From Bacteroidaceae bacterium (GTDB taxonomy: Bacteria > Bacteroidota > Bacteroidia > Bacteroidales > Bacteroidaceae), in contig JAGCPB010000001.1 of NCBI GenBank assembly GCA_017642425.1, positions 21,424 through 85,423 on the forward strand: DNA of 64,000 nucleotides. The letters are read 5' to 3'. The notes beneath the pieces are model-generated. The model saw nothing but the letters and a program-made list of their open reading frames with translations, made no database searches and had not been told where the DNA came from. Positions within the stretch are counted from its first letter, which is position 1. Each line of letters starts with the position of its first letter. Shown here in pieces: positions 6,011-47,384 of this stretch. A program made the translations under genes and the position numbers.

Positions 6011-6030
6011 TTACACATTGTCTAATGTGG

Positions 6031-6050
6031 TAAACCGTGAAGGCGGTTTA
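6031..6050 (+). promoter_or_regulatory. Leader hairpin upstream of the UpxY-like gene
   Basis: TAAACCG (6031-6037) and CGGTTTA (6044-6050) form a perfect 7-bp stem with the 6-nt loop TGAAGG. It lies about 20 nt after the probable transcription start and before the favoured GTG start of the antiterminator. RfaH-type NusG paralogues are recruited at ops elements that form a small hairpin on the non-template strand, so a recruitment or pause site is possible. No T run follows, so it is not a simple terminator. Confidence 0.35.
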
Positions 6051-6116
6051 AATCCTTCGGGCACGGCTCTAACCTCCGTTGCTACCCTCTGTAGAAAGGA
6101 CTATTCAGAAACAGGG

Positions 6117-6692
6117 GTGTCCGTAAGGTATGCATATGATTCTAGCAAGCAATGGTTTGTTTTCAGAGCCACTTATGGGCGTGAATCCAAGGCACTTTCT
6201 TTTCTGGAAACCAAGGGCATAGAAGCATATCTGCCGCAACGTTGGACAGTGCGCCAGGTTGGAAATTCAACAAAGCGTGTAAAGGAACCGTTGCTGCCAA
6301 ATCTGTTATTTGCATATTGTAGTCTTGAGCAGGCTGAGGTTCTGATTAAACATACTCCGGAGCTCCAGTATCTCAACTATTATTATAATCATCTTCAGTG
6401 TGAGCCCGATGGCAAGAATCCGCCCCTGACTGTCAAATATGAGCAGATGATGAATTTCATTGCTGTTACATCGGCCCCCAATGAACATATTCGTTTGATA
6501 GATGCCAGCAGATGCCATTTCAAAAGTGGAGATAAGGTTCGTGTAGTTAACGGATCCTTTACCGGCGTAGAGGGTAAGGTGGCAAGAATATCCGGACAGC
6601 AACGTGTCGTAGTGGAAATAGACGGTCTGTGTGCGGTGGCTACGGCATACATACCCACGGCATTTCTGGAGAAAGAAGATTTAAAAGTTTGA
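6117..6692 (+). CDS. UpxY-family transcription antiterminator (NusG/RfaH paralogue)
   Basis: The open frame runs from a TTG at 6018, but I favour the GTG at 6117 (191 residues). It puts the conserved start of the NusG N-terminal domain (QWFVFRATYGRESKAL) about 12 residues in and gives the usual UpxY length. The domain continues with GIEAYLPQ and a basic LPNLLFAYC segment; the C-terminal KOW domain is visible as FKSGDKVRVVNGSFTGVEGKV. UpxY proteins promote transcription through long capsule operons in Bacteroides. Here it is followed within 18 bp by a roughly 41-kb run of co-directional genes with no capsule enzymes, so it probably serves that operon. No UpxZ partner was seen. Confidence 0.85.
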   Translation: MSVRYAYDSSKQWFVFRATYGRESKALSFLETKGIEAYLPQRWTVRQVGNSTKRVKEPLLPNLLFAYCSLEQAEVLIKHTPELQYLNYYYNHLQCEPDGKNPPLTVKYEQMMNFIAVTSAPNEHIRLIDASRCHFKSGDKVRVVNGSFTGVEGKVARISGQQRVVVEIDGLCAVATAYIPTAFLEKEDLKV

Positions 6693-6710
6693 TAATTAAA
6701 ACTTAAAGAT

Positions 6711-7190
6711 ATGGAATTTGATCCCAGTAAGATTGAGGCATTGTGTAAGGAGAGAGAAGAAAAAATCCTGAAAGGATATTTTGGGGACCTTGTAAAAGAG
6801 GCTGCTATAGAAAGACCGGAGTTCATAGGCAAAAAATATCAGCCTGATTTGCCTTACAAGATAGAATCAGAATACAAGGAATATCTGGATTTTCTTGTAA
6901 GACAACTGTTCCCCGGAAATGACATTGTCAATGTAAACAGTTTCCTTGATGAAGAGAAGCTGCGCAAACTGATGACAGATGATGACCGTGAAGGTATTGA
7001 GGTAGCCTACAAAAAGGCTACCAGGAGAAATGTTGTTGAGAGGATAGCCAATACTAATCACAAGGATGTGACATTCTATAAGGGTCTTCTTGAAGCTCAC
7101 GCAAAAGACCTCTTGTTTGTTATGCGCACTGATTTCTTGGAGGAGTTGACGGGCAAATTTATTAAGAACAAGACTTTTGAGAAGGAATGA
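6711..7190 (+). CDS. Hypothetical protein, first structural gene of the operon
   Basis: 159 residues, highly charged (many Lys and Glu), no signal peptide or membrane segment, predicted mostly helical. I recognise no family. It starts 18 bp after the UpxY-like stop and ends 9 bp before the first RyR gene, so it belongs to the same transcript. Its place at the head of the operon, in the cytoplasm, might fit an adaptor or accessory to the RyR/TIR proteins, but nothing in the sequence shows that. Confidence 0.75.
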   Translation: MEFDPSKIEALCKEREEKILKGYFGDLVKEAAIERPEFIGKKYQPDLPYKIESEYKEYLDFLVRQLFPGNDIVNVNSFLDEEKLRKLMTDDDREGIEVAYKKATRRNVVERIANTNHKDVTFYKGLLEAHAKDLLFVMRTDFLEELTGKFIKNKTFEKE

Positions 7191-7199
7191 AAGTCAAAT

Positions 7200-7496
7200 A
7201 TGAGCAAAGATAAATATATACCTCAGCCTGTGGATATATCGGATGTAATACTTCCCGATGATATCACAGAGATTGCAGAACAGATAGCCCGGAATGTTCA
7301 TGAAGTCTGGGCAAAGTCCCGCATAGACCAAGGCTGGAAATACGGAGAGCAGAGAGATGACGATAAGAAAACGCATCCATGTCTTGTCCCTTACGATGAA
7401 CTGCCTGAGAGTGAGAAGGATTATGACCGGGACACTTGTATCAATACTATTAAGATGATGATGAAACTTGGTTTCAGAATGACAAGAGAATCCTGA
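7200..7496 (+). CDS. Stand-alone RyR domain protein
   Basis: 98 residues. After a YIPQPVDISDV lead-in, almost the whole protein is one RyR (ryanodine receptor repeat, Pfam PF02026 type) domain: NVHEVWAKSRIDQGW, YGEQRDDDKKTHPCLVPYDEL, SEKDYDRDTCINTIKMMMKLGF. The conserved W, GW.YG, RDD, HP.LVPY and YDR positions are all present. In animals these repeats are part of Ca2+-release channels; prokaryotic copies have been proposed, from comparative genomics, to sense nucleotides in conflict systems. It is cytoplasmic, 15 bp before a TIR gene, and the simplest of five RyR proteins in the operon. A ligand receptor role is inferred. Confidence 0.9.
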   Translation: MSKDKYIPQPVDISDVILPDDITEIAEQIARNVHEVWAKSRIDQGWKYGEQRDDDKKTHPCLVPYDELPESEKDYDRDTCINTIKMMMKLGFRMTRES

Positions 7497-7511
7497 AAAG
7501 CAAAGAGCCCG

Positions 7512-8882
7512 ATGAAATATGACGTTTTTTTAAGTTATAGGAGAAAGGGTGGCTTTGAGACAGCAAAGCATCTTTTTGACCTTCTGACTAAAGATGGGTA
7601 TAAGGTATGTCTTGACCTTGATACCCTGAGAGAGGGTGATTTTGACAAGGCGCTCCTGGCTCGTATAGATGATTGTCAGGATTTTATTCTCATTGTGGAT
7701 TCCCATGCCTTTGAGCGTTCTGTCAATCCTGATTTTGATCCACAAAAAGATTGGCTTAGACAAGAACTGGCATACGCTCTTGCCAAAGGAAAGAATATTG
7801 TCCCGGTATTGCTGGCTGGTGCAGTATTTCCTGATAATCTGCCACCCGATATATGTCAGATTGCACATAAGCATGGGCCAAGTTACAGTATGGAGTATTT
7901 TGATTCATTTTATAATAAACTTAAGAAATTCCTTCATACTAAAAGAGCGTTAATCAGAAAGACCTGGCTATTGTCAGTATTAGCTATTTTGATAATAGTA
8001 GGTGGTGGTTTATTACTGTATCTAACCAAGAATAGACCGGAATCACAGGAGCATGGGGATAGTTCAGCAACTGAACCAGAAACAACAATTTTTCAAGAAC
8101 CCCAATCTCCATCGGCTCAAGAATCAGTACAGACACCTGAGTTTACAACTACAGAGAGCAGTGCTGATATATCAAACAAGTTGAATAACAGTATTATTAA
8201 CTCTAATAATGCTAAGAGTATTGTTAATCAAGTTAGTCCTACGACCTCAGTGGCGTATAATCAGGTCATTTCCGGAAAGGTGGGCCAATATAATTATGTG
8301 GATTTAGGTCTATCTGTTATGTGGGCTACTTGTAATTTAGGTTCATCAAAACCAAGCGATTCCGGTCAATTCTTTTCATGGGGTGAAGTAACGTCTAAAC
8401 CAGACTACACATGGATTACTTATACATTGCTAATTGATGGCACCAATAAGGATAATGCCAGATTCAAGAAGTATAATATAGACAACAATAGCGGTATAGT
8501 TGACAATCTTTTTAAACTGGAAACAACAGATGATGCTGCTTATGTTATTTGGAGGGACAAGTGGCGTATGCCCACTAAAGAGGAATTTGATGAACTTGTC
8601 ATTAACTGCACATGGAAATGGACAAAAGTAGATGGTGTGCCGGGATATGTGATTACTTCAAAGAAAAGAGGATTTGAAAGCAACAGTATATTTCTGCCTG
8701 CTGCCGGATATTATCAGAAAAAAAACGTTCAGAAAAATGGAGAAAGGGGGTGTTATTGGTCATCCTCTTTAGGAAATTATAGCCATTCGGCTGTCTATCT
8801 TGGCTTCAACTCATCAACAGAAAGAACATATAACGATGAGAGATATATAGGCCGTTCGATCAGACCGGTTTGTGAAAAATAA
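7512..8882 (+). CDS. TIR - transmembrane - FISUMP-like domain protein
   Basis: 456 residues. Residues 1-140 are a TIR domain: YDVFLSYRRKGG opens the first strand, DLDTLREGDF is the BB-loop region, and WLRQELAYAL carries the Glu expected at the NADase active site (WxxxE). A membrane helix (~152-172) follows, then a Ser/Thr/Gln-rich linker to ~255. The rest resembles the Fibrobacter major paralogous (FISUMP) domain: YVDLGLSVMWATCNLG, FFSWGEV, WRMPTKEEF, FLPAAGYY, GCYWSSS, IRPVC. Topology puts TIR inside and FISUMP outside the cytoplasmic membrane. A TIR enzyme controlled by an extracytoplasmic module is the natural reading; NADase activity is unproven. Confidence 0.85.
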   Translation: MKYDVFLSYRRKGGFETAKHLFDLLTKDGYKVCLDLDTLREGDFDKALLARIDDCQDFILIVDSHAFERSVNPDFDPQKDWLRQELAYALAKGKNIVPVLLAGAVFPDNLPPDICQIAHKHGPSYSMEYFDSFYNKLKKFLHTKRALIRKTWLLSVLAILIIVGGGLLLYLTKNRPESQEHGDSSATEPETTIFQEPQSPSAQESVQTPEFTTTESSADISNKLNNSIINSNNAKSIVNQVSPTTSVAYNQVISGKVGQYNYVDLGLSVMWATCNLGSSKPSDSGQFFSWGEVTSKPDYTWITYTLLIDGTNKDNARFKKYNIDNNSGIVDNLFKLETTDDAAYVIWRDKWRMPTKEEFDELVINCTWKWTKVDGVPGYVITSKKRGFESNSIFLPAAGYYQKKNVQKNGERGCYWSSSLGNYSHSAVYLGFNSSTERTYNDERYIGRSIRPVCEK

Positions 8883-8887
8883 CAGTT

Positions 8888-10705
8888 ATGTGTATGATTG
8901 GAAAAAACAGATTCATAATAGTCGTATTATTCCTTTTCTTTCATACTGCGTTATCAATTAACGCACAGATGGGAATAACGGATGGAATTAATGGTTTTAC
9001 GGGTAATGGGACAGGCAGAAATTTGCGTGCAGCCGATAACAATGCCATTCAGGAACTTGTCAAACAGATTGCATACAAGTACTCATCTGATTTTGAGAGT
9101 GTGAAAGACTATTTGTTAGATGATTCGGGTGATGACAAACTTGCAGCCCAAGCTGTCGTCAACACTTATGTCAATTATATCCAGAATAGTTCTGAAAGGG
9201 AGATACTTAGTCAATCGCCTAGTTATCAAGTCAGAAGATTTATTTCGGAAGATGCTCTTGGGGAGATTTTCTCTGCTCGTAGATTTAAGATGGAGGATAT
9301 GCTCAAGAGTGCATCGAAAGCCGAAAAAGCCGGAAAGATTGATGATGCATTGAGATTTTACAATTGGAGCTATTACCTAATGCAGAGTTTGCCTAATTCT
9401 GATACAATCTCAATGGATGGCAGAATACTTGTTAATTGGATTCCAATAAGAATTGAAGAGATTTTAAGTGGTGTGTCTTTCGTTCAGCACAAAGCAGATG
9501 CCAAAAATGCAGTGCTTGATATTACATATAAAGGGGCTCCGGTAACAAGTCTGGACTACATATATTATAATGGGACCGACTGGAGCAATATCTTCAGCGC
9601 TAAGGATGGTATAGGCGTTCTTGAGTTTGATTCATTTGTTCCAGGTGATATACAGGTGAAATGTGAATGTAACTATCTGAGCGAAGCTCATATTGACAGA
9701 GATATCAATATGTTGGTTGATGTGTTGTGTGGGCCGTCTTTTCAGGGTGATATGAAAACGATAGGCTCAGATATTCGTGCATCTGTTGCTTCAGTAAATA
9801 GTCAGTACGAAATTGATGACACTGAAAACACTGATTATGAATTATTGAAACGAAGTACATTGGTATTGTTTTCTGATAAGGAGGCATTGCCATTCAGGCG
9901 AAGGATTGACAAAGTATTGTCTGCCATAGAGTCCAAAAAATATAATTCAGTTGATGAATTGTTTTCGCTTGATGGGTTGGATATATTCAACAAACTTATT
10001 TCATACGGTGATGCGTATGTAGTTGGAGATTTGGATTCTTTGTTGTTCATGGTATCTAATGATGAGGTAATTTGTCGTTCAGTTCCTATGAACTTCTCGT
10101 TCAAAAACAACAACCGCACATTTGTGGAGAATGTTTGTTTTGTATTCAACAGCGATACTCTAATTGACAATATATCATTCGGATTGGGTAGAAAAGCCTC
10201 TAAAGATATTCTGTATCATCCTAGTTGGAGCGAATATGCACGCAAAATACTGATAGAGTTCCTTGAGAATTACAAGACCGCCTATGCATTGGGACGCATT
10301 GATTATCTTAGACAGATATTTGATGACAATGCTGTTATTGTTGTGGGAAAGGTTAGTGAAAGGCCTGCTCAGAGCGTTGATGTTGAACAAAAATATATTG
10401 ATAACAAATATGTTCAGTACTACCACAGGTCCAAAGAGGAATACATGGAACAACTGGAACGTTGCTATAAAAGTAATGAGTTCATTAATATACGTTTTGC
10501 CGAAAATGAAATTGAAAAGGCAGGAAAAGGAGGCGAAGTGTACGGAATATCTATAAAGCAGGATTACTACTCAACCAATTATGGAGATACGGGTTATCTG
10601 TTTGTAATGGTTGACCTTAATGACCCGAAACAACCCATAATAAAAGTCCGTGTATGGATGCCTGAACGTGATCCTGACTTTTGGGGGCTTTCTAATTTTT
10701 GGTAA
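8888..10705 (+). CDS. Exported protein, LPP20-like N-terminal region, unknown function
   Basis: 605 residues with a clear signal peptide (FIIVVLFLFFHTALSINAQ). Residues ~30-120 (ADNNAIQELVKQIAYKYSSD) resemble the LPP20-type domain of Bacteroidetes envelope proteins. The middle is an uncharacterised mixed region, and the last 130 residues have the look of an NTF2-like module (YGDTGYLFVMVDL; RVWMPERDPDFWG). It starts 5 bp after the TIR-FISUMP stop; the start could be the ATG at 8888 or 8894. No catalytic motif was seen. Probably periplasmic; recognition is weak. Confidence 0.6.
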   Translation: MCMIGKNRFIIVVLFLFFHTALSINAQMGITDGINGFTGNGTGRNLRAADNNAIQELVKQIAYKYSSDFESVKDYLLDDSGDDKLAAQAVVNTYVNYIQNSSEREILSQSPSYQVRRFISEDALGEIFSARRFKMEDMLKSASKAEKAGKIDDALRFYNWSYYLMQSLPNSDTISMDGRILVNWIPIRIEEILSGVSFVQHKADAKNAVLDITYKGAPVTSLDYIYYNGTDWSNIFSAKDGIGVLEFDSFVPGDIQVKCECNYLSEAHIDRDINMLVDVLCGPSFQGDMKTIGSDIRASVASVNSQYEIDDTENTDYELLKRSTLVLFSDKEALPFRRRIDKVLSAIESKKYNSVDELFSLDGLDIFNKLISYGDAYVVGDLDSLLFMVSNDEVICRSVPMNFSFKNNNRTFVENVCFVFNSDTLIDNISFGLGRKASKDILYHPSWSEYARKILIEFLENYKTAYALGRIDYLRQIFDDNAVIVVGKVSERPAQSVDVEQKYIDNKYVQYYHRSKEEYMEQLERCYKSNEFINIRFAENEIEKAGKGGEVYGISIKQDYYSTNYGDTGYLFVMVDLNDPKQPIIKVRVWMPERDPDFWGLSNFW

Positions 10706-10747
10706 GGATTTTTGTGTTGGCTAATCATTTTGATATTAAACTATAAT

Positions 10748-11188
10748 ATGAATACTTATATCCCTAAACCAATTGATTTATCGGACGTAAACCTGTCTGA
10801 TGATCTGAATGAATTGCAAGAGGCAATTGCAGAGAATGCTCATGAAATATGGTCACAGAACAGGATTGCTGAGGGTTGGACATACGGTCCAACTCGTGAT
10901 GACCAGAAGATGCAGAATCCAGATTTGGTTCCTTACAACAAACTATCAGATGGCGAGAAGCAGTATGACCGTGAGATGGCAATGAAGACCATCAAACTGG
11001 TAAAGAAACTTGGCTATGATATAGTAAAGCGCGAAGAAACAGAACTATACAGAGTTCTTATGAACCGTATCCGAAACTCCAGACAGGAGTTTCATTGCCG
11101 CAGATGTGATAACGTGATATACCGCTATCAGGTTTTCTGCGATAAATGCGGTGTTCTTCTGGATATCGATTGGAATAGCTTGAAATAA
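10748..11188 (+). CDS. RyR domain protein with C-terminal zinc ribbon
   Basis: 146 residues from the ATG at 10748, chosen because MNTYIPKPIDLSDV aligns with the start of the stand-alone RyR protein at 7200; an upstream TTG at 10712 only adds an unlikely hydrophobic leader. The RyR domain (NAHEIWSQNRIAEGWTYG, PDLVPYNKL, KQYDREMA) is followed at ~117-138 by a CxxC-x10-CxxC zinc ribbon (CRRC...CDKC). A RyR receptor coupled to a zinc-binding interaction or nucleic-acid module is plausible. It is 4 bp upstream of the SIR2-TIR gene, so it may report the product of that enzyme. Confidence 0.88.
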   Translation: MNTYIPKPIDLSDVNLSDDLNELQEAIAENAHEIWSQNRIAEGWTYGPTRDDQKMQNPDLVPYNKLSDGEKQYDREMAMKTIKLVKKLGYDIVKREETELYRVLMNRIRNSRQEFHCRRCDNVIYRYQVFCDKCGVLLDIDWNSLK

Positions 11189-11192
11189 GAAT

Positions 11193-12548
11193 ATGAAGGC
11201 AAAGCGAATAGATAAGGAACGGGTTTATAATGATGGCTTCAGTGCTTTCATTGAAGAGATAAGGAATGGTAATGTCTTGTTGATGGTGGGGCATTCATTT
11301 GAATCTAATCAGGAAGTATTCAGAGGTACCTTTTATGACTATATTCTAAGTAGGCTTAATGCTGTTTCAGGTACTGAGGGGCTGGATTTCTCAGACTTGA
11401 GTTATGATAACCGTTTCCTACTGGATAAAAACAATCCAAATCATATCAGGAATCTTCATGAAGAGATTGTTAGAATAATAGACGAGAATGAATATTCTGC
11501 TCAAGAAGATGTATCCAAGAATCTTATTAGATTAATAAGCACAGGCTTTTTCAAGTTTGTTTTTACAACATCTTTTGATCCATTGGTGGAGATAGCCATG
11601 AAGGAGAAGTTTGGGGATGTCAGGGTAATGAATATTTACGATAAGGCCAACAGGGATGTGGCATCTGTCTCAGATTTGGACATTCCTACCATTTATTATC
11701 TGTTTGGTAAAGCAATGCTCCCCAAGGAGAATGAAAAGGCCAAGAAATTTGCTGCTACAGATAATGACGCACTTGAGGTGATACGCAAGTGGCAGACAGA
11801 TATGGCCAATTCATCATTATTACGGTATACGTCAGATAAATACATCCTTACATTAGGTTGTACCCAGGATGATTGGCTTTTCCGTTTTATATGGTATACG
11901 CTGAAAGGTGATTCTGGAAATCTGTCAAGAGGAGTAATTGCAGAGCATGCTAAGAGTGAGTCTTTATCTCATTATCTTAAGATGAATCATATTCTTATTG
12001 ATAATAATGCAGATGAGGTTATAGAAAAGATCATGAATGCTGTAAACACGTTTAATCAAGATAAATGGAGTGTACCAGCTAACAATTGCGACGTGTTCAT
12101 TTCATACTCCAGAGCAGATTCAGAGATTGCCCAGAAACTATATGATAGTCTTACGAAAGTTGGATTATCAGTTTGGTATGATAAATACAACCTTGGAGGC
12201 AAACATGGTGGCAAGTTTATGGATGCATTGAAGGAGGCAGTTGATACGTCTACCATTTTTATCGCACTATTGAGTCCATCAATTACAAAACAGTCTCATG
12301 ATATTCATATATATCGCAGAGAATGGGAATGGGCCAAGGAGTTAAAGTGGGGACTGTGTGCAGATAGCCGTTGTTATGCTGCATATTCAGATGATTATGA
12401 CATAAACTCCAGAAAGTATCAGGATGCATTAGGATGGTTGGCAGAATCAGATAATTTTGAGTTTGTATCATCAAATCCTTGTTTTGATGAGTGTGCTCTA
12501 CAAATACAGAAAAGAATAAATCAAATCAAAGCTCATGCAACAGACTGA
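11193..12548 (+). CDS. SIR2-like / TIR fusion protein (copy 1)
   Basis: 451 residues, no signal peptide. Residues 1-~280 resemble the SIR2-like domains of bacterial defence proteins: NVLLMVGHSFES, FFKFVFTTSFDPLVEIA, YYLFGKA and ILTLGCTQDDWLFRF at the positions of the family's nucleotide loop, TTN.D, HG and GYS.D motifs. The canonical HG is FG here, so the catalytic His may be missing. Residues ~299-430 are a TIR domain (CDVFISYSRADSE, VWYDKYNLGG, REWEWAKEL with the candidate catalytic Glu). Both folds can destroy NAD in defence systems. The gene overlaps the following STAND NTPase gene by 14 bp; a second such pair occurs at 29.3-34.2 kb. Confidence 0.83.
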   Translation: MKAKRIDKERVYNDGFSAFIEEIRNGNVLLMVGHSFESNQEVFRGTFYDYILSRLNAVSGTEGLDFSDLSYDNRFLLDKNNPNHIRNLHEEIVRIIDENEYSAQEDVSKNLIRLISTGFFKFVFTTSFDPLVEIAMKEKFGDVRVMNIYDKANRDVASVSDLDIPTIYYLFGKAMLPKENEKAKKFAATDNDALEVIRKWQTDMANSSLLRYTSDKYILTLGCTQDDWLFRFIWYTLKGDSGNLSRGVIAEHAKSESLSHYLKMNHILIDNNADEVIEKIMNAVNTFNQDKWSVPANNCDVFISYSRADSEIAQKLYDSLTKVGLSVWYDKYNLGGKHGGKFMDALKEAVDTSTIFIALLSPSITKQSHDIHIYRREWEWAKELKWGLCADSRCYAAYSDDYDINSRKYQDALGWLAESDNFEFVSSNPCFDECALQIQKRINQIKAHATD

Positions 12549-15078: not shown

Positions 15079-15095
15079 TGGAGTGATTATTGTTT

Positions 15096-15773: not shown

Positions 15774-15774
15774 G

Positions 15775-16677: not shown

Positions 16678-16684
16678 TTTTATT

Positions 16685-20313: not shown

Positions 20314-20473
20314 TCTCGCTTTTTCGTTGTAGCTCATCACTAACAGGATGTTATTATTTCCTCTTGCGATTGTATCGGATTGATTGTGTATAATTAAGCA
20401 GGGTTACCGAAAACTGTATTATAGAGTAGGTATATAAAAGTTGCACCCGTTACGTATCAGGGTAATTAGTAAT

Positions 20474-30793: not shown

Positions 30794-30798
30794 CAACA

Positions 30799-34161: not shown

Positions 34162-34188
34162 ACAGAAACAATTAATTGCAATTTATTG

Positions 34189-36772: not shown

Positions 36773-36786
36773 TTGAATTTGATGAA

Positions 36787-37275: not shown

Positions 37276-37495
37276 TTATAACAATATATTAATTAAAATA
37301 TTGCTAAAATTGCACTATATTAATTCCGGAAACATCCTAATTGCAACTAAATAAAGATATGAATTCAGTAACAATCTGTTCTCAACTTTATGATTGGGAG
37401 GTTGTCAGGACTACCTTAGAATGGTATGCTTCAAATAAACAGTAATATTGAATAGTTTTTTTTCGTTTAAATATGTAATTACAACAATGTTAAAT
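37276..37495 (+). other. 220-bp AT-rich gap inside the operon
   Basis: This is the longest gap in the operon. It is very AT-rich and has no consensus TAnnTTTG box or T-tailed hairpin that I could find. A 28-codon frame with an ATG at 37359 and TAA ending at 37445 lies within it (MNSVTICSQLYDWEVVRTTL...), possibly a remnant gene or a small peptide; I would not call it a gene. Confidence 0.4.
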
Positions 37496-38503
37496 ATGAA
37501 AAAGATTGTATTATCTCTTATTCTGGTACTCGCAACTGGAATAAGTATGGCTCAGAGCCAGTTTGTAGCTACACTTGTACACAATGGTGAGGTATCTACC
37601 TATTACGGATTCAATGCTTTTGTAGACGCATATACAGCAGCTGATAATGGTGATATAATAACACTATCCAGTGGTACTTTCAGGTCAACCAAAATCAGTA
37701 AAGGATTGACTGTAAGAGGTGCTGGATTTGTTGATGACTCTGAATCTCAGACTAACAGTACCGTAGTTACTGGCAATTTTTCAATTAACTTAGCGGATTC
37801 ATTACGTTTAAGTTTTGAGGGAATTCTTTTTAATGATGTTGTATCTCTCACCAACCTTAGTAATTCTCAATTTCTAAAGTGTTATTTTAATTATTTGTCA
37901 AATGTTTCAAGTAGTAAGGCCATAAATAATACTTTTTATCATTGTTATATAAAAGATCCTGATTTATTTGGCGAAAATAGTTTCATTTCTTGTGTGGTTA
38001 GATTTCGTAATTCATCTCAATCTTGTTCTTATACTTTCGATAACTGCATATTATTAGCTGGCAGTTCTGGTAGTCCTGTATATTATTCCACTTGTCGCAA
38101 CTGCATTTTTATTCAACGTTCTGGTTATTATTTCAATAGTTCTTCTTTATCTCCTTCATCCGGAGGACTTGCTTTCAATTGTATTTCAAATTATATATCT
38201 GGTTATTCTTATATTTTTAGCGCCCAAACTAATAATACAAATCAGATGGTTTCTGTTCCTATAAGTTCAATTTTTAAGACATATGATGGTGAAGGAATGC
38301 CACTTGAAGAAAGGTTTGAACTAACAGATAGCGCTGCAGCAGTATTCTTAGGCTCAGATGGTACTCAGGTGGGCATTTATGGAGGTCCTTTTCCGTTTTC
38401 TCCTACTCCCAGTTATCCGCGTATAACAAAATTCGAGGTTTCAAACAAAACAGACTCTGAAGGTAAACTCCGCATGAAACTTGAGGTTAAGTCTGGAAAC
38501 TGA
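37496..38503 (+). CDS. Exported beta-helix-like protein
   Basis: 335 residues from the ATG at 37496, which begins a standard signal peptide (MKKIVLSLILVLATGISMAQ); the frame is open back to 37448 without a better start. The mature part has AYTAADNGDIITLSSGTF and GLTVRGAGFVDD, the opening of pectate-lyase-like parallel beta-helix proteins, then many Asn/Ser/Tyr-rich short strands and Cys pairs. No lyase catalytic set was seen. It ends near TKFEVSNKTDSEGKLRMKLEV without a recognised sorting domain. A surface or periplasmic binding protein is likely. Confidence 0.72.
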   Translation: MKKIVLSLILVLATGISMAQSQFVATLVHNGEVSTYYGFNAFVDAYTAADNGDIITLSSGTFRSTKISKGLTVRGAGFVDDSESQTNSTVVTGNFSINLADSLRLSFEGILFNDVVSLTNLSNSQFLKCYFNYLSNVSSSKAINNTFYHCYIKDPDLFGENSFISCVVRFRNSSQSCSYTFDNCILLAGSSGSPVYYSTCRNCIFIQRSGYYFNSSSLSPSSGGLAFNCISNYISGYSYIFSAQTNNTNQMVSVPISSIFKTYDGEGMPLEERFELTDSAAAVFLGSDGTQVGIYGGPFPFSPTPSYPRITKFEVSNKTDSEGKLRMKLEVKSGN

Positions 38504-38524
38504 TCATTTGCTTATAAAAAGCCA

Positions 38525-41500: not shown

Positions 41501-41848
41501 ACAAGCTATAATGGTAGTTCCGGCTTTGTTCCGTGTTTTGAGCAAAAAGGGTCATCAGAGTCAATATATGCCTTGAATGTGGGTGAAGAACGTTGGAACT
41601 TTGCTGCTGGCAGTTTATTTGACCGTAATTATAGGAGTGTTTATCCATTTGAGGCATATCGAATATCAACATCACATGCTGTTCAAAGGATGCCTATTGC
41701 GAATGATATCAACGGAAACGCCACGAGTGTGTTGATTCCAAGAGCGGATGGTGTTGAAATCTTAAGATATGATTTGAAAGGAATGCCGGTGGATGACAAC
41801 CATAAAGGGCTATACATTCAAGACGGTAAGGTATGGTTCAGGAAATGA
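38525..41848 (+). CDS. Large exported repeat protein (YWFDND repeats) with C-terminal sorting-like tail
   Basis: 1107 residues with a signal peptide. Residues ~20-420 contain about six repeats of ~67 residues, each starting near (Y/F)WFDND or a variant and containing GFH.(V/I)H and FIK. The middle has a DVTAAVNDI pre-peptidase-like segment, an Ig-like stretch and a chitobiase-like HYTLDGTEPSAQSP motif (~660). Leucine-rich-type sections follow (NLRLLDLSNAVIAG). The end, ILRYDLKGMPVDD..KGLYIQDGKVWF, resembles Bacteroidetes type IX-like or anchor tails. It overlaps the next gene by ATGA. Function unknown; likely large surface adhesin-like. Confidence 0.75.
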   Translation: MKKIQLFIMLLILAVPLPGAVKTKYEYWFDNDRTSVVSGIVDSTSLDLLIETGLLESGMHTIHVMLTDTNGAPVPVITRHFIKAFNADEMKEVVFWIDNDTSAIKRQNSIDGIIEIGTDKMDYGFHYVHAQVIGNSGTPTSVSSAYFIKAFYTTQLKEVSYWFDNDRSDNRKLDITDDIIELNTDDIDYGFHFVHIQVVDSTGIATSVSTKSFIKTFSSTKIKDICYWFDNDESTIHSLKTYDDIIEIPADSLLNGFHSIHVRITDDFGSPTSVATSFFIKMDTDIDQFRMFYSVDNGKSIEITNDITDGVCYLDLDMSNLTDGLHRLVYYLANENEVTTSIRTCIFWKNPIDEAPVLEYSYWLNDDGDTTVVQNTDYSDPLIMDVMVPVESVPFRSTYFSFLVEDGKPVAYAKNDFHINVKNYFGYTDEEMASYTDMNVSYPIENLIHLEPNDVKTSAVPGENKILWFKFDVAQNDSVTLRLDAEATMQLFSPTGQELINVNDTNALHYNASWVHENGTCYVAVHDVTAAVNDITIEYNRTDAYGLPHVMSLTCSDSINIVLGNVVNLYDVVTLLPLESRNRLLTVSSDNELIAKIVDGGDGKLEIVGASAGITNITVRSNDTPSTYKSIKIKVSEPDIKINYDGRFLSFDAVDGVIHYTLDGTEPSAQSPMFKNKIDVMGLCGVKAIAVNNGYESMPGHYTVDSYYDGAIATTSQKGVLAKAFGWCGTDGVENLRIEGTLDNSDFETIRTLVNLRLLDLSNAVIAGNELTDSLLSGSGVLSVKFPSTIEKVGNGLFYGCDNLASIVWSSTTVLTQDVFGGMDNPNFLLFVNDISQAVRTGITNIVVNGMAQRITLSDNILPDGTHGPANFYCPMSFRVQNEITYTHNYSQITLIGDCGGWETLSLPFDVQTITHSEKGEIVPFKLSASGRKQFWLCALTDNGFVDADSIQANKPYLIAMPNNPEYSPFYCLNGDVTFSSRNVVVPVSQPDTSYNGSSGFVPCFEQKGSSESIYALNVGEERWNFAAGSLFDRNYRSVYPFEAYRISTSHAVQRMPIANDINGNATSVLIPRADGVEILRYDLKGMPVDDNHKGLYIQDGKVWFRK

Positions 41849-43380
41849 GAAGACTGCTTATTACACTTATGCTTACAGGAATGGCTGTGTTGTGTTATGC
41901 ACAGCAAGGGTTAAGTGTGGAGAGTTTCAGATATTTAGAAAAAGATCTTACTGCTCTTACTCATGAGACAGAACGAGAGGATCAGAATGGCAACAGAGCT
42001 GCTCTAATCAAGATTGTTACGCCAGAACGAGGATTTGTATTTGATGGCGGAATGTTGGGGGTGGTGGATGTTGTAGAACAGGAAGGTGAGATATGGCTTT
42101 ATGTCCCACCGCGTTCACGTCATCTAAGCATTACACATAGATATTTCGGTAAATTGAGTGAATATGAATACCCTGTTGAGATTGTAGCAGGGCGTACATA
42201 TGAGATGAGACTGGATATTGGTACTGGCCGCTACGTTAATATTACAACATCTGTCAATGGTGCCAGTGTAGTAGTTGATGGCAGAAATGTAGGCGTATCA
42301 CCTGTATATAATCATTATCTGACATTTGGAAAGCATAGTATAGACGCTGTTTCAGGTAATTATGAGGGTAGTGCTGAAATTGATGTTACTCAGAACACAG
42401 AGAAAGGAGTGGTGCTAATGGTGTCTATGAACGATATTTCCCCATTGTTGGGGGAGGTGGTGGTTGATGTGGATAATGGCGCTGACATTATTTATGGTGG
42501 ACAACGTGTCAGCTCCGGAGTATGGAGAACCCAACTTAAAGAAGGTGAATACGTTGTTTCTACAGCACTTCCTGATTGTGATACAGTTAGGACTTCATTC
42601 AAGGTCATAAGGCAGCAACAAAATATGGTAAAGGCAAATGCTCCAATTCCACATACCGGATTCTTGCGTATATACAGCAGACCTCATAATGTGACAGTTA
42701 TATGCGATGGAAAGACAGAACTTGATTTAAGTCAAACTTTGTCTATGACAGTTGGACAGCATGAATTGACTTTCTCACATAAAGGATACAACACTGTTAC
42801 TCTGAATTATGCTATTCAACGTGGCATAACAATGTTTGATACCGTTTCACTAGATAAGATGAAATATGTCCGTCCAGTTGCATTCTATTTCGGTGCAGGT
42901 TATACTATGCGTGATTTGTCTGGTGTTACTGCTGTAATAGGTGCAGTATTATTTAACAACGACATTCAGTTGACGTATACATTTGGAACAGGGCCTTCAG
43001 ATAATGTTTACTGGTATGATGAAGCCGGTAAATGGCAAAGTTCAATCCAGTACAGTCATAATACTCTGTCAGTAAGATATGGTTATCAGTTTATGCCTAT
43101 ACAGAGAATGGCTATCACGCCATATATTGGTTATGGGTTGGAAAGTATGATAGCTCATAAAAAAGAAGGAACAGGGAATTATGTGGATGGCGCAACTGCA
43201 AGTACAGTGGGGGCGGGAGTAAAACTTATGTTTGTTCCTGTAGGACATGTCAATTTGTTTTTTCAGGCAGGATATGATTATGCAGTAAGTATGGATGAAC
43301 CTTTGAGGCGCGTAATAGATGTAGCAGGTTTTAAAGTGGATGGATTCAATGCCACTGCCGGGTTATTGTTAAGCTTCTGA
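41845..43380 (+). CDS. Exported PEGA-domain protein with outer-membrane beta-barrel
   Basis: 511 residues from the ATG at 41845, which overlaps the upstream TGA as ATGA; an ATG at 41833 is less likely. The signal peptide ends at CYAQ. PEGA-type modules occur at ~135-185 (NITTSVNGASVVVDGRNVG) and ~270-325 (GFLRIYSRPHNVTVICDGK). The last ~170 residues (VAFYFGAGYTMRD to FNATAGLLLSF) alternate like a transmembrane barrel and end in Phe. PEGA modules usually link a membrane part to peptidoglycan or surface layers. It parallels the BACON/barrel protein at 16685. Confidence 0.78.
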   Translation: MRRLLITLMLTGMAVLCYAQQGLSVESFRYLEKDLTALTHETEREDQNGNRAALIKIVTPERGFVFDGGMLGVVDVVEQEGEIWLYVPPRSRHLSITHRYFGKLSEYEYPVEIVAGRTYEMRLDIGTGRYVNITTSVNGASVVVDGRNVGVSPVYNHYLTFGKHSIDAVSGNYEGSAEIDVTQNTEKGVVLMVSMNDISPLLGEVVVDVDNGADIIYGGQRVSSGVWRTQLKEGEYVVSTALPDCDTVRTSFKVIRQQQNMVKANAPIPHTGFLRIYSRPHNVTVICDGKTELDLSQTLSMTVGQHELTFSHKGYNTVTLNYAIQRGITMFDTVSLDKMKYVRPVAFYFGAGYTMRDLSGVTAVIGAVLFNNDIQLTYTFGTGPSDNVYWYDEAGKWQSSIQYSHNTLSVRYGYQFMPIQRMAITPYIGYGLESMIAHKKEGTGNYVDGATASTVGAGVKLMFVPVGHVNLFFQAGYDYAVSMDEPLRRVIDVAGFKVDGFNATAGLLLSF

Positions 43381-43389
43381 TTTTGGGAT

Positions 43390-44637
43390 ATGGTTATGAG
43401 AAAGATATCATTTGTTCTTGTATTATGGTGTACAGTCATGTTTTTTGCTGACTGTCACAATAAGGAATATAATCTTACTGTGGTACCAAGTAATGAATAT
43501 ATCCATACATCAGATGTGTCTTTGTTAGGTAGTGTCACAAGTGGTGTAATTAAAATAGATGCCAATTGTGGCTGGTCTTTATCATGTGACTCTGATTTTG
43601 TACATCTTTCAAAAACTAGCGGTAATAACAGTGATTCTGTTTATTTCTCAATAACTGCGAATTCTTCATCGGTAAAAGAGCGTATTTCAATTGTTCACCT
43701 TTCCAGTTCAGGAGGAATAAAAACCACAATAAATATCAAGCAATACAAAAATGAGGAACTGATAGAAGTAGATCCTGATCATCTGGATTATCTGGCAAAC
43801 CAGACAGATACACGAGCTTTTTATGTTAAAGCTAATGGACATTGGAGTATTGACAGCAGCCAAGTCATACCAGATTGGATCGTACTTTCACCAACTCAAG
43901 GTAACGGTAGTCTTTGGGTAAATGTTTCAGTTCAAAAGAATGATAATGATTCAGAAAGGGAAAAAGATATAATCATTGTTGGCGATAAGGGTGCAATGGC
44001 TAAAATAAAGATTAAACAATCGGGTCTTTCTACTCTTCTTTTAGCATCACCGTCCAACATATTGGCCGAACCTTCAGATAATTTATATGGGTTTACCATA
44101 TCGGGTAATGTAAAATGGCATGTTAAGTTGTCATCAGATTGGATATATGATTTGTCTATTGATGAGGGGTATGGCAAAGACTCTGTTACGTTCAGGTGCC
44201 GGGATAATTTGGATTTTCTGGAAAGGCAGGGTAAGATAATTGTCATATCGGAAAGTACAAATCAAAAAGACTCGGTTATAATAACTCAGAAGAAAGCTGA
44301 ATTGGCGTATGCCAGAAAACCGGTATTGGTGGCGTGTAACGAGAAAGAGGCTGAATTTACATACAGGATAGAATCATCATCATTTCCAGTAACTGAATTT
44401 GGCTTATGTTATTCAGAAAGTCCGCACCCCACTTTATATGACAATAAGATTAAAAGCAGTTCTGATCCGTTAGACGAAGAAGATGCCAGGTCGATGATAA
44501 ATGGACTTACTAAAGGCCATACTTATTATGTAAGTGTTTATGCAGTTAGTAAGGTTGGCATATCATATAGTGATGATTGCGTATTTGTGGCTTTGCCCAA
44601 ACCTGATAATGATGATATTGACCGTCCGGTGTTCTGA
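43390..44637 (+). CDS. BACON-domain lipoprotein
   Basis: 415 residues (start 43390 or the ATG at 43396). A signal peptide ends in FFADC, an acceptable lipobox. Three BACON-like modules follow: ANCGWSLSCDSDFVHLS, ANGHWSIDSSQVIPDWIVLS and GNVKWHVKLSSDWIYDLS, each closed by an IKQ-type strand. The last ~100 residues have a fibronectin III-like pattern (TEFGLCYSESPHPTLYD; GLTKGHTYYVSVYAVS). BACON domains are typical surface modules of Bacteroidetes. It is the last exported protein before the sigma factor gene, 46 bp downstream. Confidence 0.78.
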   Translation: MVMRKISFVLVLWCTVMFFADCHNKEYNLTVVPSNEYIHTSDVSLLGSVTSGVIKIDANCGWSLSCDSDFVHLSKTSGNNSDSVYFSITANSSSVKERISIVHLSSSGGIKTTINIKQYKNEELIEVDPDHLDYLANQTDTRAFYVKANGHWSIDSSQVIPDWIVLSPTQGNGSLWVNVSVQKNDNDSEREKDIIIVGDKGAMAKIKIKQSGLSTLLLASPSNILAEPSDNLYGFTISGNVKWHVKLSSDWIYDLSIDEGYGKDSVTFRCRDNLDFLERQGKIIVISESTNQKDSVIITQKKAELAYARKPVLVACNEKEAEFTYRIESSSFPVTEFGLCYSESPHPTLYDNKIKSSSDPLDEEDARSMINGLTKGHTYYVSVYAVSKVGISYSDDCVFVALPKPDNDDIDRPVF

Positions 44638-44683
44638 TAAACGGTTAGTTGTATTAATTTGAATTTACTTGTATTTATCTTAA

Positions 44684-45241
44684 ATGACTGACCAGGAGAT
44701 AATAAAAGGCTTGATAGAGCGCGACAGGAAGGTAACGGAGGATTTCTTCTTCACCCAATGCCGTCCGTTGTTCTGCAACATTATCAATCTTGTGTTCAGC
44801 TATGATGTTGATTATGATGAGTTTGTAAATGAACTTTACGTGTATCTGATGGAGAATGATGCACAGAAGCTGCGTGACTTTGAATATCGGAGTTCTGTTT
44901 ATACATGGCTTAAGGTCCTGGCTATCCGGTATTTCATAAAGAAACGTGATCATTTGATAGATGACAGTCCCCAAAAACCTCTATATGAAGAGCCAGTGCA
45001 GTCTGATGAGAAAGAGGAGAGATTGACTGCGGAATCTGATTTGGAAAGGTTGCTGTTTCTGATGCCCAACTACAGGTATGCCTATGTAATCAGGAAACTG
45101 ATGCTGGAGGACTGTGAGCCTGAAGGGTTGGCAGATGAGATGGGGGTGACAACCGCAAATCTGTACAATATAAAACGGCGTGCAATGGCGCAACTGACAC
45201 AAATCGCCCTAAACGACATTAAGGAGTATGGCAAAAAATAA
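44684..45241 (+). CDS. ECF-type sigma-70 family factor
   Basis: 185 residues. Region 2 is visible as DYDEFVNELYVYLMEND and FEYRSSVYTWLKVLAIRYFIKKR; region 4 as YRYAYVIRKLMLEDCEPEGLADEMGVTTANLYNIKRRAMAQL, a helix-turn-helix. The size fits an ECF factor. It overlaps the next gene by 14 bp, the usual arrangement of a sigma/anti-sigma pair. Its targets are unknown; autoregulation of the operon's distal genes or of envelope genes is possible. It has no consensus TAnnTTTG box directly upstream. Confidence 0.82.
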   Translation: MTDQEIIKGLIERDRKVTEDFFFTQCRPLFCNIINLVFSYDVDYDEFVNELYVYLMENDAQKLRDFEYRSSVYTWLKVLAIRYFIKKRDHLIDDSPQKPLYEEPVQSDEKEERLTAESDLERLLFLMPNYRYAYVIRKLMLEDCEPEGLADEMGVTTANLYNIKRRAMAQLTQIALNDIKEYGKK

Positions 45242-46169
45242 ACACATATCGGACCAATTGCTGGCGGCATATCTGGATGGAAACACCAGCCCGGCGGAGA
45301 GTCTTGAGGTGCTTGAGGCTTTGAAGCAGGACAGCGGGCTCAGAGAGGTATTGGATGTTTCAATTAGTGTTGAAAAAGACAATGAGGCTGCTATTGATGT
45401 ACTTCCCATGATGGAATATGTAGCAGAGAACCCCAAGAAAATATGTAGCGTGCTATGTGAAATGTTTGTTCTTAACAAAAGACATATTCAGTGTAAACAC
45501 GATACTGTATGGCATATGATTATGAATCCTGTATGGATTACACAGCAGGGTGTTCCGCTTCATTCCATAGGAAATATTCTTACTGATCATGGTCTCATGA
45601 TTACCAGGAAGTACAATTCTGCTATGTCTGATATAATTAGTGCATTGTCTGATGATAATGACGTGATTGTGGTGGTAGACAGTGACAAGTTATATTCTGG
45701 GCGAGTGGATTTGGAGGATGCTCCTAATCATGCGATTGTAGTTTTGGGTGTTGAACGGGAATCGATACATTTATTTGATCCTTCAGAAAAAGAACAAGAC
45801 ATCATTGTTTCACAAAATGTTTTTATGAAAGCGTGGAAGGAATCAAAAAACTATATGATACGCGTGTTGAGAAATATTGATGATTATACGCCACATCCTA
45901 TATACCTTGAGGATATTCCTCTTACCGATGACCTGATTGAGTTGCGTGAGGCGATAGCCGAGAACGCCCATGAAGTATGGGCTGCAGCACGCAAGAGAGA
46001 GGGGTGGACATACGGCAAGGTTAGGGATGATGAGCACAAGAAGCATCCTGACCTGATTCCTTATTCAGCCCTTCCGGATAGTGAGAAGGAGTATGACCGC
46101 ATTATGGCCCTCAACACCATCAAATTGGTCCGTAAACTGGGATTTGAAATAGTGAAAAACAAGAAGTAA
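45228..46169 (+). CDS. Anti-sigma-like / C39-like peptidase / RyR fusion protein
   Basis: 313 residues, no membrane helix. The N-terminus (ISDQLLAAYLDGNTSPAES) has the helical pattern of anti-sigma N-termini but lacks the HxxxCxxC zinc motif. Residues ~75-210 resemble a bacteriocin-processing C39/papain-like domain: ICSVLCEMFVLN (candidate Cys), APNHAIVVLGV (His) and IHLFDPSE (Asp). The C-terminal ~95 residues are a full RyR domain (NAHEVWAAARKREGW, RDDEHKKHPDLIPY, KEYDRIMALNT). Overlap with the sigma gene suggests it controls that factor. Ligand-triggered release of sigma is inferred; peptidase activity is uncertain. Confidence 0.75.
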   Translation: MAKNKHISDQLLAAYLDGNTSPAESLEVLEALKQDSGLREVLDVSISVEKDNEAAIDVLPMMEYVAENPKKICSVLCEMFVLNKRHIQCKHDTVWHMIMNPVWITQQGVPLHSIGNILTDHGLMITRKYNSAMSDIISALSDDNDVIVVVDSDKLYSGRVDLEDAPNHAIVVLGVERESIHLFDPSEKEQDIIVSQNVFMKAWKESKNYMIRVLRNIDDYTPHPIYLEDIPLTDDLIELREAIAENAHEVWAAARKREGWTYGKVRDDEHKKHPDLIPYSALPDSEKEYDRIMALNTIKLVRKLGFEIVKNKK

Positions 46170-46191
46170 ACAGTCTGATAAAAACCATGCT

Positions 46192-46213
46192 TTTGCCTTA
46201 TTTCTAGGGCAAA
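46192..46213 (+). other. Small hairpin between the RyR fusion gene and the WG-repeat gene
   Basis: TTTGCC (46192-46197) pairs with GGCAAA (46208-46213) around a 10-nt loop in the 132-bp gap. No T run follows, so termination is unlikely unless weak. The gap otherwise shows only a near-match to the -7 box (TATCTTGA, 46221-46228). Confidence 0.3.
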
Positions 46214-46301
46214 TGTAGTCTATCTTGAATTAATTCTAACCAGTAGTGATAGATTCTGGCCATGATTGTACTCCTTAGAGTGAACAATAAAGAGTACAAC
46301 T

Positions 46302-47384
46302 ATGAAGAAGAATCTGAAAGAGGTATTGAACGCCACATGGAAGGTGGCTGTTGGCTTGGTGGGGTTGCTGGCACTGGTTATTATTGTCAGGTATGCCAGG
46401 ACAGAATACTATTACCATTTTGGTCGTGCATATTGTGATGACATGACGCTGTCTAGCGATGTCGTTGTCCGTGCATACATGAATAGCACATGCCGTGTTT
46501 ATAACAAGCGTACACGGCATTATACAACCCGTAAGTTACGTTGGGTGTCAGGTGCTCCTGAGCGTGACAGTCTGACTGTGTTCTGTGACAAGAATGGGTA
46601 TCGTGGTTTCCTGAACGTGAATACCGGTGAGATTGTTATTCCGGCGCAGTATGGCAAGGCATGGCATTTCTCTGAAGGGTTGGCTGCTGTAGAATACGGA
46701 AAAAAACAACTTGGCTTTATAAACTATGATAATGAACTGGTAATTAGCGGCGTGCCTCATGAATCGGGTTATCATGACTATCTGTTCAAGGATGGATTCT
46801 GTGTGGTTCAGAGATGGGATGGTGTCATGGGTGAATGGATCCATACTGTTCTATCTAGCAAGACATTGAGTGTTATTGCTGAGTACTATTCATTATACTG
46901 GATTGATGATCATGAATATATGATAGCCAGGGATGATAATGGTTATTGGCTTCTGGATAAAGAATTCAACAGGGTGTTTGCTGAACCGTATGACAAAATA
47001 GAGCAGGCAAACGATATTGATGGCGTTTTTGTGGTACGCAACTGGGTAAAACAACTTATAGGATTTGACGGAACTGTGATTGAACCCTTTGTTATTGATG
47101 GCACCAGCAGGCTGTCATACGTATCAGGATTAACAGATCCGTACTATGAACCGGATTGTGAGTGTTATGACCAGGATGAAGTGACTGAATTTGAGCCAGA
47201 TCTGGTGGTTTATAAGGTAAATTACAATAGTGGACTGATGAACGCTCATACCGGTAAGATTATCACTCCCGCCATGTATGGTGATATAACGATGATTTCA
47301 AAAGATTTGATACGTGCCGAAGTGAACCGCTTCACCTATGAAAGTATTCTGCTTGACAGGAACGGAAATAGAGTTGATGAATAG
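46302..47384 (+). CDS. Membrane-anchored WG-repeat protein
   Basis: 360 residues. A basic N-terminus and one helix (~13-30, VAVGLVGLLALVIIVRY) anchor it. The remainder has WG/KWG-type repeats common in Bacteroidetes: KNGYRGFLNVNTGEIVIPAQYG, EGLAAVEYGKKQLGFINYD, NGYWLLDKEFNRVFAEPYD and SGLMNAHTGKIITPAMYG. These fold as beta-propeller-like or beta-rich sensors of unknown ligands. It is the last gene of the rightward run; the 18 bp before the convergent SpoIID gene contain only a very short inverted repeat. It may be an independent gene added at the end of the operon. Confidence 0.78.
   Translation: MKKNLKEVLNATWKVAVGLVGLLALVIIVRYARTEYYYHFGRAYCDDMTLSSDVVVRAYMNSTCRVYNKRTRHYTTRKLRWVSGAPERDSLTVFCDKNGYRGFLNVNTGEIVIPAQYGKAWHFSEGLAAVEYGKKQLGFINYDNELVISGVPHESGYHDYLFKDGFCVVQRWDGVMGEWIHTVLSSKTLSVIAEYYSLYWIDDHEYMIARDDNGYWLLDKEFNRVFAEPYDKIEQANDIDGVFVVRNWVKQLIGFDGTVIEPFVIDGTSRLSYVSGLTDPYYEPDCECYDQDEVTEFEPDLVVYKVNYNSGLMNAHTGKIITPAMYGDITMISKDLIRAEVNRFTYESILLDRNGNRVDE

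Follow-up and report, generated by a model that had tools for sequence, protein, structure and literature searches.

We have analysed a window of 64,000 nucleotides from a draft Bacteroidaceae genome (assembly GCA_017642425.1; 2.62 Mb in 114 contigs, 87% complete) and find that some 41 kb of it, an operon at positions 6018-47384 that combines TIR, SIR2-like, STAND, ryanodine-receptor (RyR) and protease domains, is, as judged by comparison with its relatives, a conserved regulatory frame enclosing exchangeable modules and not one fixed circuit. Our interpretation, to which we give slightly better than an even chance, is that this is a horizontally acquired modular signalling island, probably anti-phage, in which RyR domains read the products of TIR proteins. 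As a preliminary description of the sequence had claimed, the operon is a co-directional run; it comprises 31 open reading frames (ORFs), all rightward, with intergenic gaps of -16 to +172 bp. The arrangement is real and striking, and cannot be put down to chance because its two ends recur in two relatives. The preliminary description overlooked the UpxY antiterminator encoded by the first gene and the island nature of the stretch, and proposed one integrated circuit. That proposal is only partly supported: the frame occurs in only three of 37 genomes of the genus, including the window genome, and the mostly different interiors of the two relatives, G005 and G019, rule out a single fixed circuit conserved whole.

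Proteins are named here by the first coordinate of their genes (Table 1). The four TIR proteins previously described were all recovered (7512, 11193, 15775 and 29348; TIR_2 42-76 bits against a cut-off of 28), and the trypsin-like, CHAT and PrsW protease candidates all exceeded Pfam cut-offs. Other assignments stood in part. Of two supposed SIR2-like modules, 11193 exceeded the SIR2_2 cut-off (33.7 against 24.5 bits), whereas 29348 had no Pfam SIR2 match and is termed SIR2-like because it aligns with 11193 and with a protein from G005 to which both are similar across the SIR2 part. Similarly, one of two claimed STAND NTPases, 12535, matched nSTAND1 at 71.2 bits, but the STAND half of 30799 was assigned from its relatives and a P-loop recognised by eye, because the 25 families listed of its 67 Pfam matches were all propeller/WD40. 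The five reported RyR proteins comprise three clear Pfam matches (7200, 10712 and 45228), a borderline C-terminal domain in 34724 (24.5 bits in hmmscan, below the 27.4 cut-off, and 29.6 bits in another search) and the divergent 21567, for which a Pfam search at E<=10 matched nothing. The C39-like protease candidate gave BtrH_N and C39 matches below cut-off, yet Cys73 and His168 of its triad are invariant in 15/15 aligned rows, with Asp at the Asp184 position in 12 and Asn in three. The extracytoplasmic function (ECF) sigma factor scored 41.1 bits with TIGR02937, slightly below the cut-off of 42.9.

The 41-kb stretch is probably a foreign, horizontally acquired island. Its GC content is 38.6%, against 51.6 and 50.0% in the flanks, and the same drop is seen in the islands of G019 (38.5%) and G005 (37.1%). 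The flanking genes encode an AlkD-like protein on the left and a convergent DUF4922/SpoIID protein on the right. When all 37 available genomes of the genus were searched for both flank proteins, the AlkD-like protein was found in 30 and DUF4922/SpoIID in 33, with both on one contig in 19. The two matches lie only 5-355 bp apart in ten of these 19 genomes, while six have other genes between them, spanning 1.8, 3.9, 9.3, 16.4, 28 and, in the window, 41.6 kb. No integrase was present among the Pfam matches of the 31 operon proteins, no search aimed at integrases having been made. Three of the 19 (L045, L046 and L047, from G036, G010 and G022) have the AlkD block in inverted orientation with respect to DUF4922. 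Cargo at the same hotspot (e.g. L043, L044, L048) includes a FISUMP-like protein in both G006 and G020, accompanied in G020 by DUF5675 and a PrsW fragment, and proteins of no assigned family in G012.

The frame recurs in G019 (C11:6623-21775) and G005 (C12:37266-55466), the 15-kb version of G019 being the shortest of the three. At its 5' end, UpxY is 81-82% identical in the two relatives and the adjacent protein u159 is 75% identical in G019 and 71% in G005; at its 3' end, identities in G019 and G005, respectively, are 82 and 80% for the ECF sigma factor, 66 and 39% for the C39-like protein and 63% in both for the WG-repeat protein. The WG gene is the final gene before DUF4922 in G005, which shares the right flank only, its single AlkD match (51%) sitting on a different contig; in G019, C39 and WG are separated by a 493-aa ORF, and a further ORF of 261 aa, leftward, precedes DUF4922. 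Between these ends, G019 carries a TIR protein with a transmembrane (TM) segment, an outer-membrane barrel, FGE-sulfatase-like and LRR proteins, an RCK-RyR protein and an RyR protein, and G005 carries RyR, SIR2-like/TIR, STAND-WD40, a BACON outer-membrane protein, RyR-zinc ribbon, a C10 peptidase, a mechanosensitive-channel-like protein and DUF5675. Cargo common to the window and its relatives is mostly 24-33% identical, with 61-63% for the small RyR protein, 88% for the RyR-zinc ribbon protein and 91% for DUF5675, and these unequal identities imply that the parts have different histories. Indeed, with its intergenic RCK-RyR remnant and differing interiors, the region has, as far as sequence can tell, the look of one with module turnover. 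Since the interiors differ and the SIR2-like/TIR-STAND pair described below mostly occurs without RyR elsewhere, the full set is assembled from modules. UpxY was found in three and the ECF gene in four of the 37 genus genomes.

TIR and RyR parts, which the preliminary description had placed together, are indeed linked well above background. Scanning of GTDB contigs with an alignment of 11 RyR sequences found 546 relatives; the best 80 served as loci and are not independent, as L072 is G019 and some metagenome-assembled genomes contribute two. By record title, nearly all are Bacteroidales, loci titled otherwise being L089, L134 and L139 (Clostridia, Oscillospiraceae and Ruminococcus, respectively), L138 (Flavobacteriales), L063 (uncultured bacterium) and L084 (Bacteroidia). 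Custom hidden Markov models identified 62 TIR proteins in 34 of the best 80 RyR loci (1.30 Mb), 58 of them on the RyR strand, while the background is 121 Pfam TIR_2 matches in 119 genomes of the order, or ~0.3 per Mb at an assumed 3.5 Mb per genome. The excess is about two orders of magnitude, a figure which is approximate because the TIR detectors differ between loci and background. RyR matches are present in 37/393 genomes of the order, and among ten other RyR genomes of the 119-genome sample, a set not chosen through the RyR scan, three (G056, G058 and G064) have a TIR match within 10 kb where ~0.06 would be expected. In the window genome itself, all four TIR matches (E<=1e-5) and all four RyR matches fall inside the operon. 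The parts of the operon are carried separately in related genomes, but not at random.

The residues of the RyR domains point in the same direction. In the available part of a 2026 preprint, phage RyDEP is described as an RyR-domain protein that cleaves 2' and 3' cyclic ADP-ribose (cADPR) via H75, W78, H100 and D117; of eight phage RyR homologues assayed, six bound signals, those besides RyDEP without cleavage, and a role for bacterial host RyR proteins is not discussed in that part (PMC13232231). All four residues, at exactly the RyDEP spacing (+3, +25, +42; RyDEP itself was not aligned), are present in three of the five window RyR proteins (7200, 34724 and 45228). H29, W32 and D71 are invariant in the alignment of 11 RyR domains, in which H54 is His in eight and Asn in three, and of 117 RyR domains in the best 80 loci, 116 have HxxW and 80 also have His at +25 and Asp at +42. 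The corresponding columns H630, W633, H655 and D672 are conserved in at least 90% of 25 RCK-RyR proteins, and protein u482 (21567) has an EHxRW motif in common with its relatives (32/32 relatives). The window proteins resemble the phage RyDEP and RyR R12 proteins (available text of PMC13232231) in belonging to the PF02026 family and, in three cases, in having the same four residues and spacing, but differ in being host-side, beside TIR genes, and in their fusion to RCK-membrane and C39/anti-sigma-like parts. RyR relatives were also found in 284/50,697 phage records, two of which, from human faeces, match window RyR at 58-60% identity.

Two of these fusions are candidates for reading out a signal. 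A large RCK- or u482-type protein occurs in 51 of the best 80 RyR loci, with an immediate RyR neighbour in 30; 23/24 RCK and 29/32 u482 proteins are at least 600 aa long and the first 320 residues hold two to six hydrophobic segments. A model of 34724 from the 25-sequence alignment (pLDDT 83, pTM 0.78) predicts four TM helices, two Rossmann-like halves and an RyR domain at residues 616-681. A fold search of the PDB ranked first the TrkA gating ring (4j9u, 4j9v) and Slo1 (7yo3), at E<=1.5e-4 and probability 1.00, with CASTOR at rank 22; entry 6o7a was matched at E 0.016. Our reading is that 34724 is an RCK-type membrane protein gated by a ligand, with a putative pore. It shares with TrkA, Slo1 and CASTOR the predicted tandem RCK-like fold behind TM helices and differs from them in its C-terminal RyR domain and in a TM part that lacks a K+ filter motif, filter-like strings being confined to 3/25 RCK-RyR rows (one TLGF, two GIG). 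The other fusion, 45228, joins an anti-sigma-like start to a C39-like peptidase and an RyR domain, and its gene overlaps the ECF gene. The model of this protein is poorer (pLDDT 80, pTM 0.57), and the C39-RyR fusion is found in 14/15 rows from RyR loci, a biased set.

A further module combines SIR2-like/TIR and STAND proteins. The STAND gene directly follows the SIR2-like/TIR gene in 8/8 RyR-linked cases (two in the window, one in G005 and five in RyR loci) and in 11 of 13 further loci of the order (393 genomes), i.e. in 19/21 overall, the neighbour in the two exceptions being a 592-aa protein of no assigned family; two of these 13 loci carry stops inside the match and several contigs are short. 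Four of the 13 (L170, L172, L174 and L176) have an RyR-family neighbour, and a separate search added one more, G273. By this distribution the SIR2-like/TIR-STAND pair is a recurrent two-gene module living mostly alone. Loci L169-L181, SIR2-like/TIR followed by STAND and mostly RyR-free, form a candidate defence system in their own right. The Asn of the motif TTN[YF]D, which we take to be catalytic in SIR2 NADases, is present in the aligned PDB entries 9v0g and 8jkz and replaced by Thr, Ser or Cys in 8/8 SIR2 halves; 12 further SIR2-like/TIR proteins have TTS or TTT in six cases, the motif being unplaced in the other six. As this Asn is missing from all eight, the presence of two active SIR2 enzymes is doubtful, and with Thr, Ser or Cys in its place we judged two active SIR2 NADases unlikely; the substitution suggests instead that the SIR2-like half is a scaffold or sensor. 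The four TIR proteins have Glu at what is presumably the catalytic position, within WLRQE, YRRE, WTAKE and YSKE stretches placed by eye.

The first of the 31 genes matches NF033644 (UpxY) at 139.1 bits, against a cut-off of 100. Two leader hairpins, identical in sequence across the three islands, overlap its annotated start, and differing codons are found at 5/32 identical residues in UpxY codons 1-44 but at 84/128 in codons 45-225 (Fisher p 5e-7). The DNA of codons 1-44 therefore seems itself to be constrained, and, given this conservation at the DNA level, translation may in truth begin at GTG 6117. A hairpin of the form CACATT-GNCT-AATGTG lies at UpxY starts in the window (6014-6049), in a polysaccharide locus of G005 (G005:C3:190069) and at L101:1544 and L183:1501. 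A pattern search of 295 genomes of the order found the first hairpin only in G000 and G147, each time at an UpxY gene; its presence in 2/295 rules it out as a general UpxY signature. The leader hairpins may be an UpxY recruitment element. According to the available text of PMC7593976, UpxY is a known feature of capsule operons, where UpxZ usually lies next to it, and two B. fragilis UpxY genes lack an adjacent UpxZ, so that the pairing is not universal. The second gene product, u159, had no match to the UpxZ model PF06603 at E<=10 and was set aside as a recognisable UpxZ, the genome search with PF06603 being uninformative as it matched nowhere at all. Capsule operons and the island thus have in common UpxY as first gene, a leader hairpin (shared with the G005 polysaccharide locus) and a second gene in the UpxZ position; the window cargo differs in consisting of conflict/signalling and envelope proteins, with no polysaccharide gene among the Pfam matches of the 31 proteins.

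One long transcription unit, as previously proposed, is plausible, UpxY being gene 1 and the intergenic gaps of the operon being free of terminator-like sites. Two scans, which exclude 25601-27599, internal to the CHAT gene, gave nine terminator-like sites (10.8 expected) and 19 (11.5 expected), the latter a slight excess lying entirely within genes; the corresponding 91 and 75 sigma-70-like promoters (78.3 and 70.4 expected) are uninformative. No known RNA element was found in the window at the gathering threshold.

Likeness to known conflict systems is partial. As in Thoeris, TIR proteins that are likely makers of cADPR-type signals occur with SIR2-related domains, and the NCBIfam and PADLOC Thoeris TIR models match at domain level. 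The ThsB models match the TIR domains over part of the protein (7512 against ThcB4, 47.8 bits, cut-off 220), and no ThsA model was among the PADLOC matches of the ten proteins scanned. The window differs from Thoeris in its candidate reader, which is RyR, in a SIR2-like domain without the Asn, and in having 31 genes under ECF and UpxY control. A strong PADLOC match of 30799 to HEAT-ARM_XIII falls in the WD40 repeats. STAND conflict systems, as covered by the available text of PMC8195603 and PMC7159879, likewise join nSTAND1 to TIR, trypsin, caspase-like and kinase/FHA parts, which are said there to be exchangeable, whereas in the window SIR2-like/TIR is a separate gene before STAND; 'ryr' is absent from that text of PMC7159879 and 'ryr domain' from that of PMC8195603. 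Among the matches listed in a literature search that left many journals outside its reach, no paper described a bacterial operon of RyR and TIR genes, SIR2-TIR together with STAND, or UpxY in a defence operon. A comparative-genomics study of nucleotide-centred conflict systems by Burroughs and colleagues (2015) may already include RyR domains.

Our working model of a signalling island takes its anatomy and linkage as observed, to which chemistry, trigger and a role in defence are inferred additions. Transcription would start past the AlkD terminator, and RNA polymerase would take up UpxY at the leader hairpins before crossing the 41 kb. Infection or damage to the envelope may be sensed by STAND or membrane-anchored proteins, whose TIR partners, once activated by them, would turn NAD into (c)ADPR-type signals; the SIR2-like half would serve as a scaffold or sensor and have no catalytic role. 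RyR domains would then read the signal: the 4TM-RCK-RyR protein may act as a membrane gate, the anti-sigma/C39-RyR protein may release the ECF sigma factor, and the small RyR proteins may be sponges or hydrolases that end the signal. The response would be carried out or shaped by the envelope proteins together with the trypsin, CHAT and PrsW proteases. Stated in full, as a Bacteroidales TIR-to-RyR immune pathway in which TIR-made cyclic ADP-ribose has dedicated host receptors in RyR domains that gate a four-helix RCK membrane protein, a bacterial counterpart of the NAD-metabolite-gated channels of animals, and trigger a C39 anti-sigma protease with release of the ECF factor, all within one UpxY-antiterminated, module-swapping operon, the model is a tentative one, possible rather than probable.

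Several observations weigh against this model. No TIR was found in 46 of the best 80 RyR loci, many of which end at contig ends, and only three of the ten RyR genomes in the 119-genome sample have one within 10 kb. Of the window RyR proteins, 10712 has Asn at the H100 place and 21567 keeps just the His and Trp (HxxW) of the four ligand positions, while the exact spacing is found in 7/23 RCK-RyR rows with EHxRW, the others having insertions or changes. The fold matches of 34724 are remote and come from one model (TM-score 0.30-0.32 by query and 0.24-0.46 by target), other Rossmann enzymes fill most of ranks 5-21, TrkA_N matches weakly in 7/25 members and no K+ filter (GxG or TxG[YF]) is present in the first 330 residues. 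The C39 protein lacks RyR in G005 and in G007, the fourth genome with the ECF gene; a genome search of G007 found no RyR match, although the ECF-C39-WG end is present, and that regulator therefore need not serve RyR or TIR proteins. The single 41-kb transcript is one that we infer, and PADLOC found no complete known system among the 10/31 proteins scanned.

The strongest counter-reading is that the modules merely share a transcript, in a plain defence or variable island whose hotspot and UpxY leader gather unrelated parts, so that RyR, TIR and STAND are independent and have no signal in common. The other hotspot cargo of 1.8-28 kb in other genomes, the remnant of a lost RCK-RyR gene at 37353-37442 and the SIR2-like/TIR-STAND pair, mostly without RyR neighbours elsewhere and in this a further point against our model, all favour it. 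We nevertheless regard it as rather unlikely, since RyR and TIR genes are linked far beyond background and in the same direction (58/62), and RyR domains of several architectures have the same ligand residues. A programme of envelope or surface sensing rather than defence, in which the ECF factor, the anti-sigma-like peptidase and the BACON, PEGA, FISUMP-like and WG exports answer surface cues and NAD chemistry reports metabolic state, would accord with a crude prediction that about ten envelope proteins of the window are exported or membrane-anchored, with the RyR-free C39 proteins and with the cargo of PEGA-like, BACON-like and M48 proteins beside the ECF-C39-WG end of G007. It seems improbable, however, given that four TIR proteins, two STAND proteins and CHAT, trypsin and PrsW are typical conflict parts, and given the patchy presence of UpxY and ECF genes and the foreign GC content. 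It is also conceivable, if distinctly improbable, that the RyR proteins are chiefly ADPR/cADPR hydrolases which shield the cell from its own TIR products and not receptors. The places of the RyDEP glycosidase His/Asp dyad are kept in three window proteins, but the fusion of RyR to gating-ring-like and peptidase/anti-sigma-like parts suggests read-out, and the signal binding without cleavage reported for phage homologues (PMC13232231, available text) argues likewise.

Table 1. Features of the island and its left edge, with positions in the window
Feature	Position	Strand	Basis or remark
Terminator-like hairpin after AlkD-like flank gene, left island edge	5810..5836	+	
Conserved leader, candidate UpxY recruitment element	5967..6049	+	Box and two hairpins
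Leader box CCAATTAATGCTTA	5967	+	
Leader hairpin 1, CACATT-GTCT-AATGTG	6014-6029	+	
Leader hairpin 2, AAACCG-TGAAGG-CGGTTT	6032-6049	+	
UpxY antiterminator; alternative start GTG 6117	6018..6692	+	NF033644
u159, in UpxZ position	6711..7190	+	71-75% identity in two relatives
Stand-alone RyR domain, four ligand residues complete	7200..7496	+	Pfam, residue check
TIR - TM - FISUMP/Lcl_C-like	7512..8882	+	C-terminal part below cut-off
Exported protein	8888..10705	+	
RyR (Asn at second His place) - zinc ribbon-like	10712..11188	+	G005 counterpart 88% identical
SIR2-like (Ser at presumed catalytic Asn place) - TIR	11193..12548	+	Pfam, alignment
nSTAND1 NTPase - multiple TM, directly after 11193	12535..15078	+	Pfam
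FISUMP/Lcl_C-like exported protein	15090..15773	+	Below cut-off
TIR - TM	15775..16677	+	Pfam
BACON - outer-membrane barrel	16685..18592	+	Pfam
Lipoprotein-like protein	18604..20313	+	
109-aa protein	20441..20770	+	
PrsW intramembrane protease	20854..21561	+	132 bits
u482, divergent RyR-like C-terminus (HxxW only)	21567..23015	+	Longer relatives add N-terminal TM
TM - trypsin-like protease	23000..24385	+	N-terminal FHA by eye
Kinase-like fragment - TM	24385..25563	+	Kinase part below cut-off
TPR-like - CHAT protease	25550..27946	+	133 bits
Exported protein	27965..29320	+	
SIR2-like (Thr at presumed catalytic Asn place) - TIR	29348..30793	+	Alignment
STAND (P-loop by eye) - TM - WD40, directly after 29348	30799..34161	+	
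Small membrane protein	34186..34674	+	
Four predicted TM helices - tandem RCK-like (gating-ring) fold - RyR with four ligand residues	34724..36772	+	Model
DUF5675	36787..37275	+	91% identity in G005, 80% in G020
Remnant, C-terminus of second RCK-RyR gene, 30 aa	37353..37442	+	63% to G019, E 8e-7
Exported protein	37448..38503	+	
Large exported protein, CHB_HEX_C_1/Fn3-associated, weak LRR_5	38525..41848	+	
PEGA domain protein, outer-membrane barrel by eye	41833..43380	+	
BACON protein, lipoprotein-like by eye	43390..44637	+	
ECF-type sigma factor	44684..45241	+	67-82% identity in three relatives
Anti-sigma-like N-terminus (weak zf-HC2) - C39-like cysteine peptidase - RyR, four ligand residues	45228..46169	+	
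TM - WG-repeat protein, conserved 3' end of island	46302..47384	+	63% identity

The best-supported theme of this swappable island is TIR-RyR signalling, which builds on TIR-based nucleotide signalling, STAND conflict systems and UpxY operons. If this interpretation is correct, the ryanodine-receptor domain would gain a host-side immune role in bacteria, the one study found being concerned with RyR proteins of phages, by which cADPR isomers are destroyed or sequestered. TIR-made signals would then have two receptor architectures, an RCK membrane gate and an anti-sigma peptidase, and a very long conflict operon with module swapping would be seen to start with an antiterminator known from capsule operons.

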